Below are positions 174 to 6,966 of a DNA stretch of 61,180 nt, in pieces. The position numbers were made by a program, and so were the translations under genes. The stretch comes from Candidatus Rifleibacteriota bacterium. Its GTDB lineage: Bacteria; Muiribacteriota; Ozemobacteria; Ozemobacterales; Ozemobacteraceae. Position 1 is the stretch's first letter. The number at the start of each line of letters is the position of its first letter. The DNA is taken from the NCBI GenBank assembly GCA_012517355.1, contig JAAYVD010000141.1, forward strand, positions 1 to 61,180. Reading direction: 5' to 3'. Under the pieces are notes generated by a model. That model searched no databases, was not told the origin of the DNA, and saw only the letters and a program-made list of their open reading frames with translations.

Positions 174-1172
174 TCAAGAGCGCAGGGGGCCCCGATTGTG
201 GGGACACATGACTTTTTTCGCCCCCGTGGTGGCGCCATTTTCTGGTTGGTACAGTTCGACGGGTTCTGACTTGCCCTTCACCGTGCGGGTGGGCAGGAGC
301 CGCGCCGGGAAGGCGGGGCCGAGCAGGGCCCGGACCTCGCCGGTGAGGACGATCCGTGGTTCGGCCGGCAGGGTGGCGGCCACACTTTCGCACCGGGCGG
401 CCAGGTTGACGGTGTCGCCGATGACGGTGTGATCGCGGCGGACGGCGGTGCCCAGGAACCCCGCGAGGACGGGGCCGCAGCTGACGCCGGCCCGGAGTGG
501 GAAGGGAAGCTCTCCCCGCGCGTGCTCCCCGGACAGCCGGCGGCAGGCCTCCACGGCCCGGGCGGCAGCACCGGCGAGGTCGGCCCCTTCCCCGGAGAAC
601 ACGGCCAGCAGTTTCCCCCCCATGATCTTGTCGACGTCGCCCCCGGCCTCCCCGACCACCGCGCAGACGCGCCGGACCTGCCGGTCGAGCCGCGCCATGA
701 CCTCCTCCGGCGCTTCGCGGGCGGCCGCCTCCTCGGCCCCCGCCTGCTCCAGGTAGAGCACGACCATCGTCCGGGTCTCGCCCCGCGCGCCGGCCCCCTC
801 CCCCACGCCGGTCTGGACCGCCGCGCGGGCCGACCCGGAGACCATCCGGCCCAGCAGCCGCCCCTCCGCCAGCCCCTGCACCATTCCGTTGTAGGCCACG
901 CACAGGTCGCCCACCTCGTCGGCCCGCTCGGGGTCGACCCGGCGCGAGAAGTCGCCGCGCCAGACGCACTCCAGGCTCCGCACCAGCGCCAGCACAGGCC
1001 GGAGCAGGTCCCGCGCCGCCGCCAGGGCGGTCAAAAACGCCAGGCCCAGGGCCAGGGCGGCCAGCAGGCGCACCTGCCGCGGCAGGCGGCCGGCCGCCTC
1101 GCGCAACGGGCGTTCGGAGGCGATCCCGAGGGTGATGAACTGGTGACAGGCCAGGGGCGGCACCCCTTCCAC
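174..1172 (-). CDS. C-terminal part of receptor cyclase 2: TM, HAMP and C2-like class III cyclase domain
   Basis: The 332 residues carry a membrane helix (about 36-54), a HAMP domain (about 56-105) and a class III nucleotide cyclase domain (about 133-300). The first metal-binding Asp is Glu142 and the second, in K-x-x-G-D, is Gly186. The purine-binding Lys182 and Thr249 and the transition-state Asn256 and Arg260 are all kept. A homodimer should therefore be unable to bind catalytic metals; the residue set is that of a mammalian C2 domain. The frame is the same as that of the upstream ORF ending at 1188, from which it is separated by one TAG (1190-1188). A GGGGGAGG just after that stop and a GTG 16 nt downstream of it could allow re-initiation. 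Otherwise this is the tail of a broken or mis-assembled gene. The C-terminus runs into the GGGGACACATGACTT repeat. Confidence 0.75.
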   Translation of the reverse strand: MEGVPPLACHQFITLGIASERPLREAAGRLPRQVRLLAALALGLAFLTALAAARDLLRPVLALVRSLECVWRGDFSRRVDPERADEVGDLCVAYNGMVQGLAEGRLLGRMVSGSARAAVQTGVGEGAGARGETRTMVVLYLEQAGAEEAAAREAPEEVMARLDRQVRRVCAVVGEAGGDVDKIMGGKLLAVFSGEGADLAGAAARAVEACRRLSGEHARGELPFPLRAGVSCGPVLAGFLGTAVRRDHTVIGDTVNLAARCESVAATLPAEPRIVLTGEVRALLGPAFPARLLPTRTVKGKSEPVELYQPENGATTGAKKVMCPHNRGPLRS

Positions 1173-1187
1173 CAGCAGGACCTCCCC

Positions 1188-3623
1188 CTACTCCTCGAAG
1201 GTGAACGAGAGCGGCCGGCCGGCCTCCCGCACCCGGCGGGCGGCAACCCGCACGCAGGGCCGCATCTCCCCATCCCACGGATAGAGGGTGCTGCCGACCC
1301 GGGACTGCTCCACCGCATACACCCGGAACGGCCCGGCCTGGCTGGCCAGAGCCCGGGATATGGAACGGCGGTCGGTGCGGCGCATCGAGCCCAGCCAGTA
1401 GACCACGAACCGGGGCGCCACCGCCCCGGGCAGGAGGAACCGCATGACCGAGGTCACGCTGATGCCCAGGCGATAGATCTGGAGCTGGTCGTCCCCCAGC
1501 ATCAGGTCCGCCCACCCGTCGGGGCCGAACGCCGACCGCAACAGCCGCTGGACGGTCTCCTGGGCCAGTTCCTCCCGGACGGCCCGGGAACCTCCCTCCT
1601 CCCGTTGGACGACCAGACCCGCCAGGGCCGGGTTCCGATCCGGGAGGGATTCCCCCGCCGCCCGCGCCAACCAGGTGCCCCCGACCCCCTCCCCGGTCGC
1701 CTCCTCCTGGTTCACCTCGCAGGAGAAGCCCCCCACCCCCGCCACGACCAGGGCGACGAGCTGGAAATCGTTTTCCTCCGCCTGGCCGGGCCGCAATCGC
1801 CCTTGGAGGAAGGCGCGGACCTCGCCGAGGGCGGGGTCCCGCCCGCCACCGCCCACCAGGTGGGCCCGCTGGGCCGGATCCAGCACCCGCAGAAAGCCGG
1901 GGTCGAAGGTCTGGCCCCGAACCCAGGCGAAGGCCCGGGAACGACCGGCCATGAACCGCCCCTGGTATTCCCCGATCGCCTGGCGCAGCCCGAGACGGGC
2001 CTCCTCACGCAAGGCTTCCAACCGCTCGGTTTCCAAAAACCCCGCCAGCCACCAGACGAAGGTCAGGGGAAGGAGGGAGGCCAGCAGGAACCCCCACCAC
2101 AACTGCCCGACCAGGCTGGTGGCCAGGGCCCGCCCCCCGAGGGCCGACAGCCCCCACAGCACCGCCCCCGCCAGGCAGCCGAGGATCACCCCCGCCTCGG
2201 CCCACCCTGACCCCACCGCCCATGACCGGGCCGCTGCGGCCACGCGCGTGGCGATCCGCGCCTCGTAGACCTGGTCGAGCACGACCGTCGCGGTGGCCAG
2301 GATCCATTCCCCTTCCGCGCCCCGCCCGGCCGCCCAGGGCGTGGCGGCAAACCCCGGGGTGGCGGCCGGTTGCCGACCGCCAGGATGTCGGAAGTGCCCA
2401 TTGGCCGCCACGGATGGCGGCGCGAAACGCCCGTTTGGCGCACCCCCAAGGGGCCCTCCGGCCACCGGCGTGAGGGAGATCCGGGTGGTGGGGTCATCCA
2501 CCAGGGCCGTGACCAGGACCGCTTCGTCGGGGAGGGAATCCCTGGCCAGGATCACCAGGAAGCCACCCAGACAGGTTCGCTGGTGGGCCTCGGTGGTGGC
2601 ATCCGCCCACCCGGGCGCCTGGATCCGCTCCGGGGGTAGCTCGCGGGCAAGCGCGGCCACCCGGTTCCTCGATCTCAGGGACTGCCAGAACAGCAGGCAG
2701 GACCGCCCCCGAAAGATCACCGGCACGGAGGACCCGCGCAAGGCGCTGGCGAGGAAGCGGGGCCTCACCGCCCCGGAGAAGGTGGTCGGGAACCGGCGCG
2801 CCACCTCGGGAAACCGGGATTCCGGAGCCCCTCCGGCAAGGTGGTAGTGCAGGAAGAACCGCAGGGTGTCCTGCATCAGCGCGAGTTCGGGGGTGCGGCG
2901 ATCGTCGGGGGTGACGGCGAGCAGGCGGAGTGGGTCGGAGCCTGGACCGGCGCCCGGCAGGGTTTCCTGGTGGATCACCTGGAAGACCAGGGGAAAGAGT
3001 CCCAGCTCCCCGAGTTCGCTCCGGACCCGTTCGGCGGCCACGGCCAGGGCAGCGGGGCTGCCCGGTGCGGCCATGCCCGGACCGAGGGCGGCCATGCCCC
3101 CTGGCCGCGCTTGGGGGTGGCCCGCCTTCCCTGTTTCGACAGCAGCCAGGGAGCCTTCCTCGGCCAGGGCGACCAACCGGTGGCTGCACGCCGCCAGGCG
3201 CTCCTCCAGCAGGCTGTTGACCAACTCTGGGGTGGCGAGCCGCTCCTGCCACGCCCGACACCGTTCCCTCGCCTCCCGATAGGCCGCCTCACGCTCCCGG
3301 GACGTCCGGGCCGCGCCGGCCTGCCAGACCGCCACCGCGGGAAGGGCCAGCAGGACCAGCCCCAGAAGGAACACCAGGAATCGCAGGCCGGTCGGGCGTT
3401 CCCCCGGGGGGGACGAAGAGGCCGGGGATGATGGCGGCGTTGAGGCCGGCGGAGAAGGCGTTGAGGCCGGCGAGGATGACGGCGGGGACGACGGCGGGGA
3501 CGACGGCGGGGACGACGGCGGGGACGACGGCGGGGACGACGGCGGGGACGACGGCGGGGACGACGGCGGGGACGACGGCGGGGAGAGCGGCCCGCTGACC
3601 ACGGCGACGACGGCAGGACTCAT
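1188..3623 (-). CDS. N-terminal sensor part of receptor cyclase 2, ended by an in-frame TAG
   Basis: The ATG at 3623 overlaps the stop of the upstream cyclase gene (ATGA), so the two are translationally coupled. The 811 residues begin with a Ser/Pro tract built from a 12-bp tandem repeat, then a membrane helix (about 80-100), an extracytoplasmic region, a helical hairpin (about 470-535) and a second sensor region ending in FTFEE and TAG. Reading past the TAG gives GEVLLVEGVPP and then the TM-HAMP-cyclase part without a frame change, so both pieces were probably one receptor of about 1149 codons. Around residues 390-415 a copy of the dispersed three-hairpin repeat is read in frame inside the sensor. 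The topology matches the neighbouring cyclase 1, suggesting tandem duplication followed by divergence. The ligand is unknown. Confidence 0.7.
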   Translation of the reverse strand: MSPAVVAVVSGPLSPPSSPPSSPPSSPPSSPPSSPPSSPPSSPPSSPPSSSPASTPSPPASTPPSSPASSSPPGERPTGLRFLVFLLGLVLLALPAVAVWQAGAARTSREREAAYREARERCRAWQERLATPELVNSLLEERLAACSHRLVALAEEGSLAAVETGKAGHPQARPGGMAALGPGMAAPGSPAALAVAAERVRSELGELGLFPLVFQVIHQETLPGAGPGSDPLRLLAVTPDDRRTPELALMQDTLRFFLHYHLAGGAPESRFPEVARRFPTTFSGAVRPRFLASALRGSSVPVIFRGRSCLLFWQSLRSRNRVAALARELPPERIQAPGWADATTEAHQRTCLGGFLVILARDSLPDEAVLVTALVDDPTTRISLTPVAGGPLGGAPNGRFAPPSVAANGHFRHPGGRQPAATPGFAATPWAAGRGAEGEWILATATVVLDQVYEARIATRVAAAARSWAVGSGWAEAGVILGCLAGAVLWGLSALGGRALATSLVGQLWWGFLLASLLPLTFVWWLAGFLETERLEALREEARLGLRQAIGEYQGRFMAGRSRAFAWVRGQTFDPGFLRVLDPAQRAHLVGGGGRDPALGEVRAFLQGRLRPGQAEENDFQLVALVVAGVGGFSCEVNQEEATGEGVGGTWLARAAGESLPDRNPALAGLVVQREEGGSRAVREELAQETVQRLLRSAFGPDGWADLMLGDDQLQIYRLGISVTSVMRFLLPGAVAPRFVVYWLGSMRRTDRRSISRALASQAGPFRVYAVEQSRVGSTLYPWDGEMRPCVRVAARRVREAGRPLSFTFEE
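2373..2455 (+). repeat. three-hairpin repeat R1, copy inside the cyclase 2 gene
   Basis: This copy shares with those at 37261 and 37342 the order GATGTCGG..AAGTGCCC..GCCGCCACGGATGGCGGC..GCGAAACGCCCGTTT. The stem GCCGCCA/TGGCGGC is perfect here. It lies antisense and in frame within the coding strand of cyclase 2, adding about 27 residues to its sensor domain. Confidence 0.7.
3469..3588. repeat. 12-bp tandem repeat, about ten units (Ser-Pro-Pro-Ser)
   Basis: The unit GGCGGGGACGAC is repeated eight times perfectly at 3481-3576, with a degenerate unit on each side. Read on the minus strand it encodes S-P-P-S repeats at the very N-terminus of cyclase 2, before the first membrane helix. The unit is a multiple of three, so copy-number change would alter tail length without shifting the frame. 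Confidence 0.9.
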
Positions 3624-6103
3624 GCGGACCCTCCGGGGGTGGGCCCCTTGCGGGGCACGAAACCGGCGTTGCGCGCCGCCATCCCGGGCGGCACCGGGGA
3701 GGCCCGGTCGACCTCTGGGCGGTCGGGACCCGCCGCCTCGTCGATGACGAAGGCCTCCAGGGGCCGGGCGGCGGCCAGAACCCGCGTCGGGATCCCCGCG
3801 GCCCGCGCCCATTCGGCGACCGCGCCGTCCATGACCAGTGGGACCCCGGGGGCGCTTTTCGAGGCCGCCTCCAGGGCGGCGGCGGCGGGGAGGGGGGTGC
3901 CCAGCAGGGCGAGGTCGAACCGGTGGTCGGGATCGCCGACGTAGCCCATCACCGCCTCCCCCCGGGCGAGGCCGATCCCGATGCGGTAGGGGAAGGTGCC
4001 CGCCGCCACCCGTTCCCGGTTCAGCGCCTCCACGGCTCGCCACATGGCGAGCCCCGCCGCCACGGGATGGCGGGCCGTCCGGTCCAGGGGCTCCTCGAAG
4101 ACGGCCTGGATGGCGTCGCCGATGAACCGGTCGACGCGGCCGCCATGGGCCTCGATGACTCCCGTCATCCTCGTGAAATGCGCTTCCAGCAGGGCCGTGA
4201 CCACGGCCGGGGGCTGACTCTCGCACAGGGTGGTGAACCCGCGGATGTCCGAAACCAGGGCCACGAGGCCCACCCGCCGGGCGGTGGGCATGACGCCGCC
4301 CGCCGCCACCAGGGCGTCCAAGGCCGGCCCGGAGATGAGGCGCGCATAGCGCCGGCGGACCTCGAGGGCCGCGATCATGTGGTCGAAGGTGCGGGTCAGC
4401 AGGCCGATCTCGTCCGCCCTCGCCAGGGCCACCCGCGGGGAAAAGTCCCCCGCCGACACCGCTGCCAGGGCCTGCCGCACCCGTCCGATGGGGGGGCCGA
4501 CCCTGAACCAGACGACGGTTCCCACCACCAGGGCGACCAGGCCGCCACCGGCCGCCAGGCCAAGACCCAGCCAGGCCAGGTGGACCTTCCTGGTCTGGAG
4601 CGGGGCGATGGCCGCCGAGGCCGCGAACACGATGTCGGGGAAGCTCTGGGAGGGAACGGCCACCACCAGCCGGCCGGTCTCCGGGTCGATCCCTTCCGCC
4701 GGCGCCGACCGCCCCCGGATGAGCAGTGAGGACAGGGCAGGCGGGGGGGCGATCGGGGGGAACAGCGGTTCCAAACGGCCCCGGGCCTGCCGGCAGACCA
4801 CGAAGAAGTCTCCGGGGTGGGCCTGCCGGAAGGCTTCCCGCGCCGATCCGAGGATGGCGGGTTCCAGGTCGGAGGATCGCCAGAGGCAGAGGAAGCCGAA
4901 CCGGGGGAGGCCGCCCACGATGATCAGGTCGTGGATCTTCCCGACGAGGTCGTGGCGTGAGGAAAGGGTCTCGGCCACCCCCAGCCGTTCCCGGGCCTCG
5001 GTGGTGACCGACGGATTGGAGCCCAGGGCGGCAAACCCACGCAGGAGGGCCCGGTCCTCGGGACCAACGGGGTCGTCTCCCGGGGGCGGCCGCCCCGTGC
5101 CGGCCTGAAATTCCTCGCGCGCCAGGGTCACCAGGATGTTGCGGTAGAACCGCACCAGGCTCCCATCGTCGACCTGGGCCAGCCCGGGCGAGACCGTGGC
5201 CGTCGCCTGCCCCCGGAGGTCGAGGAAGAACGCACCCAACAGCGGCAGGTCGCTGTCCCCGTACCGGAAAAGAGCCTGGCAGCGGGCCAGGAGCCGCGGA
5301 TGGGCGATCCCCCGGTCGGCCAGGCCGGCGAGGATTTCCGGGTCACGGACGACCCGGCGGGCCGCGGCCACGTAGGCGATGCGCATCTCCTCACGCCGCT
5401 TGTCGACCTGCCGGATCTCGTCCAGCAGCGATTCGCGCACCCGCCGCAGGGCGGCCTCGTGGCTTTCCTGCAGGAAAGCCAGCCCGACCACCCCCGCCAG
5501 GACCAGGAACGTCCCGGTCGATGCTCCGAACATCCCCAGGAACCGCACCCGCAGGGAAACGACCGGCAGCGGCCGGCCCAGGGCCAGCATGGCCAGGAGG
5601 CCCGCCCAGCCCATGGCCCAGGCGACATTCACCAGGGCAAGAACGGCCGGCGGCCGGACTTCCGGCTCCCGGGGCACCAGGACCACCGCGAGGTGGGGGG
5701 AATGGGTGACCGGCCGGACGAAGAGGGAATACCGTCCGAGGTCGCGCCGCCACCGCGGCCCGGTGAAATCCTCGGCCTCGCCCACCAGAGCCCGCCGCGG
5801 GTCGCGCCAGCTCCGCACCCAGGCCCGGAACCGGCGGGAGCGGCGCAAGGCGGGTGCCAGCACGTCCCCCAGCGGCCCCGGCACCACCCGCAGAAAGCCC
5901 GTCAGCGCGGCCGTCTCCCGCTCCCCGAGGCGCCGGGCCAGGTGGAGCGCCCGGATCTGCGAACGCGTCGAATCGGGGACGAGAAGGAAGAAGCCAAGGT
6001 CGCCCCGCCCTCGGCCCCGCCGCCGCCGGAACCGGCATCGGCCATCCCGGCCGGGTTTCGCGCCCGGGCGGGGGGACCCAGGAAATCCCAGGTCAGCCAC
6101 CAC
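3620..6103 (-). CDS. receptor cyclase 1, main part: sensor, HAMP and C1-like class III cyclase domain
   Basis: The open frame has 827 codons, but the first 33 or so are read out of the true frame; the genuine protein enters from the ORF 5902-6966 near 6005. Membrane helices lie at about DNA 5640-5570, 5545-5475 and 4580-4495, with a sensor region between the last two. A HAMP domain (about residues 536-590) and a class III cyclase domain follow. Both metal-binding aspartates are present (Asp619 in V-S-D-I-R-G-F-T and Asp663 in I-G-D-A). In the segment LGTPLPAAAA (about 731-741), however, the transition-state Asn and Arg are Pro and Ala. This is a C1-like half-site, complementary to cyclase 2. 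The gene ends in a partial R1 repeat and overlaps the next start by ATGA. Alone it should be inactive or very weak. Confidence 0.75.
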   Translation of the reverse strand: MVADLGFPGSPRPGAKPGRDGRCRFRRRRGRGRGDLGFFLLVPDSTRSQIRALHLARRLGERETAALTGFLRVVPGPLGDVLAPALRRSRRFRAWVRSWRDPRRALVGEAEDFTGPRWRRDLGRYSLFVRPVTHSPHLAVVLVPREPEVRPPAVLALVNVAWAMGWAGLLAMLALGRPLPVVSLRVRFLGMFGASTGTFLVLAGVVGLAFLQESHEAALRRVRESLLDEIRQVDKRREEMRIAYVAAARRVVRDPEILAGLADRGIAHPRLLARCQALFRYGDSDLPLLGAFFLDLRGQATATVSPGLAQVDDGSLVRFYRNILVTLAREEFQAGTGRPPPGDDPVGPEDRALLRGFAALGSNPSVTTEARERLGVAETLSSRHDLVGKIHDLIIVGGLPRFGFLCLWRSSDLEPAILGSAREAFRQAHPGDFFVVCRQARGRLEPLFPPIAPPPALSSLLIRGRSAPAEGIDPETGRLVVAVPSQSFPDIVFAASAAIAPLQTRKVHLAWLGLGLAAGGGLVALVVGTVVWFRVGPPIGRVRQALAAVSAGDFSPRVALARADEIGLLTRTFDHMIAALEVRRRYARLISGPALDALVAAGGVMPTARRVGLVALVSDIRGFTTLCESQPPAVVTALLEAHFTRMTGVIEAHGGRVDRFIGDAIQAVFEEPLDRTARHPVAAGLAMWRAVEALNRERVAAGTFPYRIGIGLARGEAVMGYVGDPDHRFDLALLGTPLPAAAALEAASKSAPGVPLVMDGAVAEWARAAGIPTRVLAAARPLEAFVIDEAAGPDRPEVDRASPVPPGMAARNAGFVPRKGPTPGGSA
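3641..3683 (-). repeat. partial R1 repeat forming the C-terminus of cyclase 1
   Basis: On the minus strand this reads GGATGGCGGCGCGCAACGCC followed by GGTTTCGTGCCCCGCAAGG, the second half of the dispersed R1 repeat. It encodes the last residues MAARNAGFVPRKGPTPGG of cyclase 1, so the repeat appears to have supplied or replaced the natural C-terminus. Confidence 0.6.
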
Positions 6104-6966
6104 ACCTGCTTCCGGTAGAGGACGCGGGTGGGCACTCCGCGCTGGGACAGCGCCAGGACCGACGGCTGGTGGTGCCGGCCCCAGAGGGCCTGCACCATCT
6201 TGGCCGCCTGCCGCTCCTCCCGTTCGGGGCAGTCCAGGCCCAGCGCCCGTCGCCGCAGATCGCCAAAGACCCGGGCCATCGGCCGCCGCCCCCCCGCCTG
6301 CCGGTCCGGGCCGGCCAGCACCTCGATCCCGCCCGCCATGACGGCCCGGCGCCCCAGGGTCGCCCGGACCGGCGCGACCGCACCGACCACCGGGGCGCCA
6401 TCGCCCCGCGCGATGACACCGCCGGGCGTGACGGGGCCTTCCGCGATGACGGCACCACCTGGCACGACGGCCCTGCTCCCCTCACCGGCCCCGGCGGTCC
6501 CGACGGCACCCCCTGGCGTGACGGCACCGTCCACGTCGGCCCCCACCCGGAACAACCAGCACTCGCCGCCGGAAAAGACCCGCGCCGCCGACCCCGCCAC
6601 GGCCGACCACCGCGGCATAGCCGCCCCGCCGGCCGGCCCCCTGGACGCCGGCCGCCCCGGGGCCTGCGTCCGCGCCAGCGAGGCCGTCAGCCGTTCCGCG
6701 ACCTGCCGGCACCCCGACCGGAGGTCCCAGGCGTTCAGCATCGCCTCGAAGCGGACCGCCGCGGCCCGTCGTTGCCGTTCCTCGGCCCAGGGGCGGGCCC
6801 GGGCCTGCAGGATCCCCCACCCCCCGTTCAGCAACAGGACCGGCAGGAGGCTCAACAGGAAGATCAACCCCAGGTGGGCGGGGCCACCCGTGGCCAAAAC
6901 CGGCCTCCCGCTTCCGCTCGTGGCCGTAGGCCTCCTCCTTCCCGAACCCTCCAGGGAACGGCACAT
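5902..6966 (-). CDS. N-terminal part of receptor cyclase 1, frameshifted near 6005
   Basis: The ORF starts at the ATG at 6966, preceded by GGGGAACC. It encodes a cytoplasmic tail, a membrane helix (LGLIFLLSLLPVLLLNG, about residues 32-48) and an extracytoplasmic domain. The last sensible residues are about GMADAGSGGGGAEGGA; after that the frame becomes low quality, while the frame of 3620-6103 becomes sensible at DLGFFLLVPDSTRS. The switch falls in a G run on the minus strand (plus 6003-6006), where adding one base would join both frames into a receptor of about 1115 residues. The cause could be a homopolymer sequencing error or a real mutation. A low-complexity Val/Gly/Ala segment (about 160-200) lies in the sensor. 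Confidence 0.6.
   Translation of the reverse strand: MCRSLEGSGRRRPTATSGSGRPVLATGGPAHLGLIFLLSLLPVLLLNGGWGILQARARPWAEERQRRAAAVRFEAMLNAWDLRSGCRQVAERLTASLARTQAPGRPASRGPAGGAAMPRWSAVAGSAARVFSGGECWLFRVGADVDGAVTPGGAVGTAGAGEGSRAVVPGGAVIAEGPVTPGGVIARGDGAPVVGAVAPVRATLGRRAVMAGGIEVLAGPDRQAGGRRPMARVFGDLRRRALGLDCPEREERQAAKMVQALWGRHHQPSVLALSQRGVPTRVLYRKQVWWLTWDFLGPPARARNPAGMADAGSGGGGAEGGATLASSFSSPIRRVRRSGRSTWPGASGSGRRPR

Follow-up and report, generated by a model that had tools for sequence, protein, structure and literature searches.

Can two membrane cyclases, each of which lacks one half of the catalytic residues, make up a single enzyme? This question is raised by a pair of receptor-like cyclases encoded in a 61,180-nucleotide stretch of DNA (hereinafter, the window) from Candidatus Rifleibacteriota bacterium (family Ozemobacteraceae; contig JAAYVD010000141.1), for which the initial annotation proposed complementary half-sites akin to those of the C1 and C2 domains of the mammalian membrane cyclases (tmACs, ADCY1-9). 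The roles assigned here to the individual catalytic residues are those known from the established tmAC structures. Both domains are recognized by the Guanylate_cyc (PF00211) profile, with scores of 36.4 bits for C1 and 35.7 bits for C2 (curated cut-off 21.9), and according to Pfam and TM prediction, a TM segment and a HAMP domain lie immediately N-terminal of the cyclase in each receptor. All the residues named in the initial annotation are found where it placed them. The C1 domain (frame 3620-6103) keeps both metal-binding aspartates, D619 and D663, and has Pro739 and Ala743 in place of the Asn and the Arg; furthermore, Arg659 occupies the position of the substrate Lys, and the KGK strand is missing. 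The C2 domain (frame 174-1172) keeps K182, T249, N256, R260 and also Lys299, and carries E142 and G186 at the metal sites. This is the residue pattern of the tmACs, with both metal Asp and no Asn/Arg in C1, and with Lys, Asn, Arg and Lys but no full metal pair in C2. The complete catalytic set per monomer that is typical of the homodimeric bacterial cyclases is found neither in the window domains nor in their paired relatives.

The three open frames of the window locus together encode about 8 TM segments, in two repeats of the same order (TM1, domain, TM2/3, domain, TM4, HAMP, cyclase; Table 1). The tandem repeat in this region encodes a linker of the type Pro-Pro-Ser-Ser that precedes TM1 at the start of receptor 2. 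A scan of the window against Rfam gave no match, and a Pfam search of three fused relatives failed to bring up any named sensor domain.

Table 1. Features of the paired cyclase locus (positions in the window)
Feature	Position	Strand	Evidence
Receptor 1 N-terminal piece: TM1 (GPAHLGLIFLLSLLPVLLL) and start of first extracytoplasmic domain	5905..6966	-	colinear with L046/L027
Receptor 1 coding-frame change relative to uninterrupted homologues	6010..6064	-	L174 tblastn and third-position GC
Receptor 1 remainder: TM2, TM3, second extracytoplasmic domain, TM4, HAMP, cyclase C1	3623..6103	-	
Receptor 1 HAMP	4361..4492	-	PF00672 E=1.4e-10
Cyclase C1 (metal half)	3722..4345	-	PF00211
C1 D619	4247-4249	-	
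C1 D663	4115-4117	-	
C1 Pro739	3887-3889	-	
C1 Ala743	3875-3877	-	
ATGA overlap: receptor 1 stop / receptor 2 start	3620..3623	-	
12-bp tandem repeat, 9.8 copies, 98% matches	3468..3584	-	
Receptor 2 sensor part: TM1, extracytoplasmic domain, TM2, TM3, second extracytoplasmic domain	1188..3623	-	
In-frame TAG ending receptor 2 sensor part	1188-1190	-	
Receptor 2 in-frame continuation past TAG: sensor end, TM4, HAMP, cyclase C2	174..1187	-	
Receptor 2 HAMP	870..1016	-	PF00672 E=2.6e-7
Cyclase C2 (transition-state half)	222..851	-	PF00211
C2 kept K182	627-629	-	
C2 kept T249		-	
C2 kept N256	405-407	-	
C2 kept R260	393-395	-	
C2 kept K299		-	
C2 metal-site replacement E142	747-749	-	
C2 metal-site replacement G186	615-617	-	

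Is the window copy itself a working gene pair? Over its entire length, the region is colinear with the single open frames L046 and L027 (2160 and 2257 aa) of the same genome, and a tblastn search with another single frame, L174, shows that one frame stops at 6064 and the next one begins at 6010; third-position GC likewise shifts phase near 6000. Within receptor 2, the TAG codon at 1188-1190 lies between the sensor and TM4-HAMP-C2, which continues in the same frame. The possibility that both window genes are intact is ruled out by this codon together with the frame change. Thus, the initial annotation, which placed the two halves on separate receptors, was correct in that the frames meet at ATGA, but the genes are not intact, and relatives are often fused. 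Given that the other sampled members of the same sub-family are mostly single frames, it is probable that the copy in the window has been damaged, was misassembled or is only partly expressed. On balance, we lean towards the stronger version of this reading, in which the window pair is inert as written though its relatives work, being either a decaying pseudogene or a gene pair interrupted by assembly errors. In addition to the interruptions, the C2 domain of the window has lost both metal Asp, the second of which is retained as Asp or Glu in most relatives, and there is no close orthologue in 19 genomes of the family, the best match being 34% identical. Against this reading, all residues required for one site remain in the pair, third-position GC is strong throughout the gene and equally so on either side of the TAG, and the TM4-HAMP-C2 piece has a possible start of its own at 1172. 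In any case, the apparent interruption makes the window copy a poor representative for an assay. In two other loci, L125 and L216, C2 resides in a short, 277-aa frame behind a full-length C1 receptor, a layout that resembles the C2 piece after the TAG in the window.

So could the relatives help in understanding what the pair does? The window genome (7.11 Mb) contains 87 Guanylate_cyc (class III cyclase) matches, and in 28 loci C1 and C2 domains are adjacent, with 12 of these loci forming one open frame and three showing the reversed order. Therefore the window pair is no rare oddity, being one of 28 such pairs in its own genome, and the rarity that the initial annotation ascribed to natural bacterial heterodimers does not hold in the Ozemobacteraceae, where paired half-sites are the standard form of the family, often as one fused chain. 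Across all fetched Ozemobacteraceae loci, 136 unique adjacent pairs were typed, some of them neighbours across two successive tandem pairs; the reciprocal substitutions that the half-site proposal implies recur, beyond what chance would give, in practically all of these pairs, and none of the pairs has a complete set in each domain. Both halves are encoded in a single frame, of 1,275-2,681 aa, in 61 relatives, in contrast to the three frames of the window copy. When the domains of these 61 frames are classed by position within the frame, independently of residues, the first one has both metal Asp in every case that can be read (60/60), and various residues (K, A, R, Q, G, E and others) occupy its Asn/Arg positions. 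The second has K, T, N and R, and Lys or Arg at the final position, in 61/61, and both metal Asp in 0/61. Elsewhere, the C1 and C2 labels are defined from the same catalytic residues, and with these labels, the column profiles over 103 C1-C2 pairs show D, D, R, T and E at 100% in C1, with the Asn/Arg columns varying freely, and K, T, D, N and R at 100% in C2, with the first Asp column varying freely. Some loci depart from the simplest rule: in L165, L170 and L171, C2 keeps the first Asp and has Glu at the second position, and in L133, a domain of the C1 family retains Asn/Arg and lacks KGK, as does, similarly, the first domain of L208. The profiles also contain invariants outside the active-site set, namely, in C1 only, an Arg two residues after the first Asp, a Glu nine residues after it and the His in LNxH, and in C2 only, a Lys directly after the second metal position. 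These could possibly be residues of the dimer interface or of the dead pocket.

These patterns bear directly on the possibility that the paired domains are non-catalytic, that is, two pseudoenzymes retained as receptors or scaffolds. A full site is indeed absent from either half alone, but over the 103 pairs, the complementary halves of one site are invariant and the redundant ones drift, and a decay of function would not leave precisely one complete site untouched, so that we consider this explanation quite improbable. Even less credit is due to the notion that, instead of pairing with each other, C1 and C2 pair with and regulate complete single cyclases encoded elsewhere in the genome. Such complete cyclases are present in the window genome, but C1 and C2 are nearly always adjacent, fused or ATGA-coupled, and are duplicated as units. 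Split C1-C2 gene pairs overlap by ATGA or GTGA in 35/44 cases; for the long frames of these loci taken together, which include many spurious ones, the proportion is 37%. The distances among C1 and among C2 domains are strongly correlated (Mantel r 0.83, n = 103 pairs; no higher than 0.08 in 999 permutations), which shows that the partners were not exchanged, notwithstanding that linked inheritance alone could also give mirrored trees. Finally, a chance or alignment artefact, whereby degenerate domains merely appear complementary, has a negligible probability: the C1/C2 labels do derive from the same residues and the C-terminal Lys region is poorly aligned in C1, but the label-independent count by position is without exception at the key residues in 61 frames, the catalytic motifs are clear and ungapped, and no pair among the 136 is complete in each domain.

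Thus, it is highly probable that the window pair belongs to a family of membrane class III nucleotidyl cyclases that are obligate heterodimers when split, or pseudoheterodimers when fused, with one active site; heterodimeric catalysis as the design of this family is well supported. Each half would consist of TM1, an extracytoplasmic domain, TM2/TM3, another extracytoplasmic domain, TM4, HAMP and the cyclase. C1 would contribute the two metal-binding Asp, and C2 the substrate Lys, the Thr, the transition-state Asn and Arg and the last Lys, so that the two domains would form one active site and the mirror site would be dead. The two sets of sensors would probably gate the enzyme jointly, via the two HAMP domains, yielding one enzyme with two inputs. 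Catalysis, its product and joint gating of the paired cyclases are what we infer from this arrangement. The Lys-Thr pair is typical of bacterial adenylyl cyclases. Base-recognizing residues of the ATP type (Lys with Thr/Asp, not Glu/Cys) are present, K and T occurring in 61/61 second domains, and given this Lys-Thr pair in C2, cAMP would be the likelier product. The 24 cNMP-binding domain matches in the window genome are possible receivers of the cyclic nucleotide.

Structural modeling is compatible with this scheme. AlphaFold (AF2) models, with family alignments, were obtained for natural single chains spanning C1 to C2, from the fused relatives L068 (1112 aa, pLDDT 80.7, pTM 0.55) and L213 (1199 aa, pLDDT 80.8, pTM 0.61). 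By E-value, the top Foldseek hits are mammalian membrane cyclases, namely, AC5, AC9 and AC8 for L068 and AC5 for L213, with alignments that span about 1140-1240 columns. Normalized by query length, the TM-scores are 0.31-0.35 for tmACs vs 0.15-0.16 for single cyclase domains (L068), and 0.25-0.27 vs 0.13-0.14 (L213). This approximately twofold difference is, indirectly, what would be expected if both domains superposed simultaneously; only one domain of the L213 model is aligned with sAC (4clt). The structural check suggested by the initial annotation was thereby carried out in part: the models match AC5/8/9 across both catalytic domains, but the modeled chains are those of relatives rather than of the window pair.

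What, then, is the origin of the two halves? Receptor 2 of the window can be aligned with the first half of L046 as well (E=1.6e-32), which shows that the halves stem from the duplication of one receptor cyclase. With the catalytic columns masked, the C1 and C2 trees share sub-groups, and both window domains group with L027, L046 and L174. Counts of the fewest changes on the tree, in which inner support is weak, place most C1 domains in one clade and the C2 domains in two, one of forward-order pairs and another that contains the reversed-order pairs. In six loci (L022, L034, L045, L102, L118 and L133), the C2 gene precedes the C1 gene, and the C2 domains of these form a separate clade, so the loss of half-sites may have arisen more than once. 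Other layouts were encountered as well. L023 is a three-receptor cluster (C1, C1, C2), as if one C2 were shared by two metal halves; in L148 and L157, from two genomes of the window's genus, a complete single cyclase (D-K-D-D-N-R-K type) directly precedes a reversed C2-C1 pair. Tandem arrays of C1-C2 units, each of about 2,000 aa, are found in L150 (G003:C152), L202 and L221 (G030:C314) and L203 (G034:C22), and for the C2-like domain of L050, no partner was found within the fetched stretch.

How do these cyclases relate to the known ones? In the tmACs of animals, the phosphates and the metals are bound by C1 and the base by C2, and forskolin occupies a second, degenerate pocket (PMC8815786). 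The Ozemobacteraceae pairs resemble the mammalian enzymes in having two membrane modules and two catalytic domains, the first providing the metal-binding and the second the base and transition-state residues, in the same order, with presumably one live and one dead pocket, and often in one chain. However, unlike the tmACs, with 6 TM and a helical domain, each half here has 4 TM, two extracytoplasmic domains and a HAMP; in the window, in place of the two 6-TM bundles of class IIIa tmACs proper, there are about 4 TM per half, separated by extracytoplasmic stretches. Moreover, the Ozemobacteraceae form is bacterial and occurs also split into two genes and with the order reversed. The soluble adenylyl cyclase (ADCY10) similarly combines C1 and C2 in a single chain, and its C2 stretch is the best match of the A2 profile, but it is devoid of the membrane or HAMP part. 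The chytrid NeoR/RGC1 and RGC2 are likewise receptor cyclases that obligately heterodimerize and bring together two different inputs, but they keep all the cyclization residues (PMC8815786), and are eukaryotic light sensors encoded by separate genes. Pseudomonas CyaB and Mycobacterium Rv1625c/Cya share with the present family the PF00211 fold and the membrane receptor organization, and HAMP is present as in many bacterial cyclases; they differ in that all the catalytic residues are present in every monomer, giving two equal sites, whereas each domain of the present family has half of them. Homodimeric receptor-type class III cyclases of this bacterial kind are the likely ancestor type.

Within the genomes sampled, in a survey led by C2-like queries, the paired half-site cyclases are restricted to the Ozemobacteraceae lineage. 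In all genomes with a kinship label, the paired loci belong to this family, that of the window; the best matches from the remaining families of Riflebacteria (L188-L198) are complete cyclases that stand alone; and among 45 domains outside Riflebacteria, 43 are complete and the other two keep the Asn and have His at the Arg position, with no neighbouring cyclase beside any of the 45. The single domains closest to the paired cyclases are of the bacterial CyaB/PAC type. The 4-TM/HAMP architecture, the bacterial affinity of the closest domains and the restriction to one lineage together point to convergence with the tmACs, not to membership in the tmAC family.

The class III fold and the logic of half-sites are already known; what appears to be new is the fused pseudoheterodimer in bacteria, where, according to a 2022 review, fused (pseudoheterodimeric) class III cyclases were unknown (PMC9552081). 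We found no papers on Riflebacteria cyclases or bacterial C1/C2 fusions in the open literature, subscription journals lying outside the search. The same review gives the number of class III cyclases per bacterium as up to, or about, 30, and the 87 domain matches in one 7.1 Mb genome amount to approximately three times this figure (PMC9552081). With moderate confidence, we propose that Riflebacteria, independently of eukaryotes, evolved a lineage-wide system in which each genome encodes dozens of pseudoheterodimeric adenylyl cyclases, paired or fused, that respond to two inputs apiece and have a dead pocket that perhaps is regulatory, like the forskolin pocket in animals. This lineage represents a natural experiment in which homologous pairs occur split and fused, in both orders, many times, beside complete single cyclases, and accordingly allows one to test the reason for the division into half-sites, the inputs added by fusion and the role of the dead pocket.
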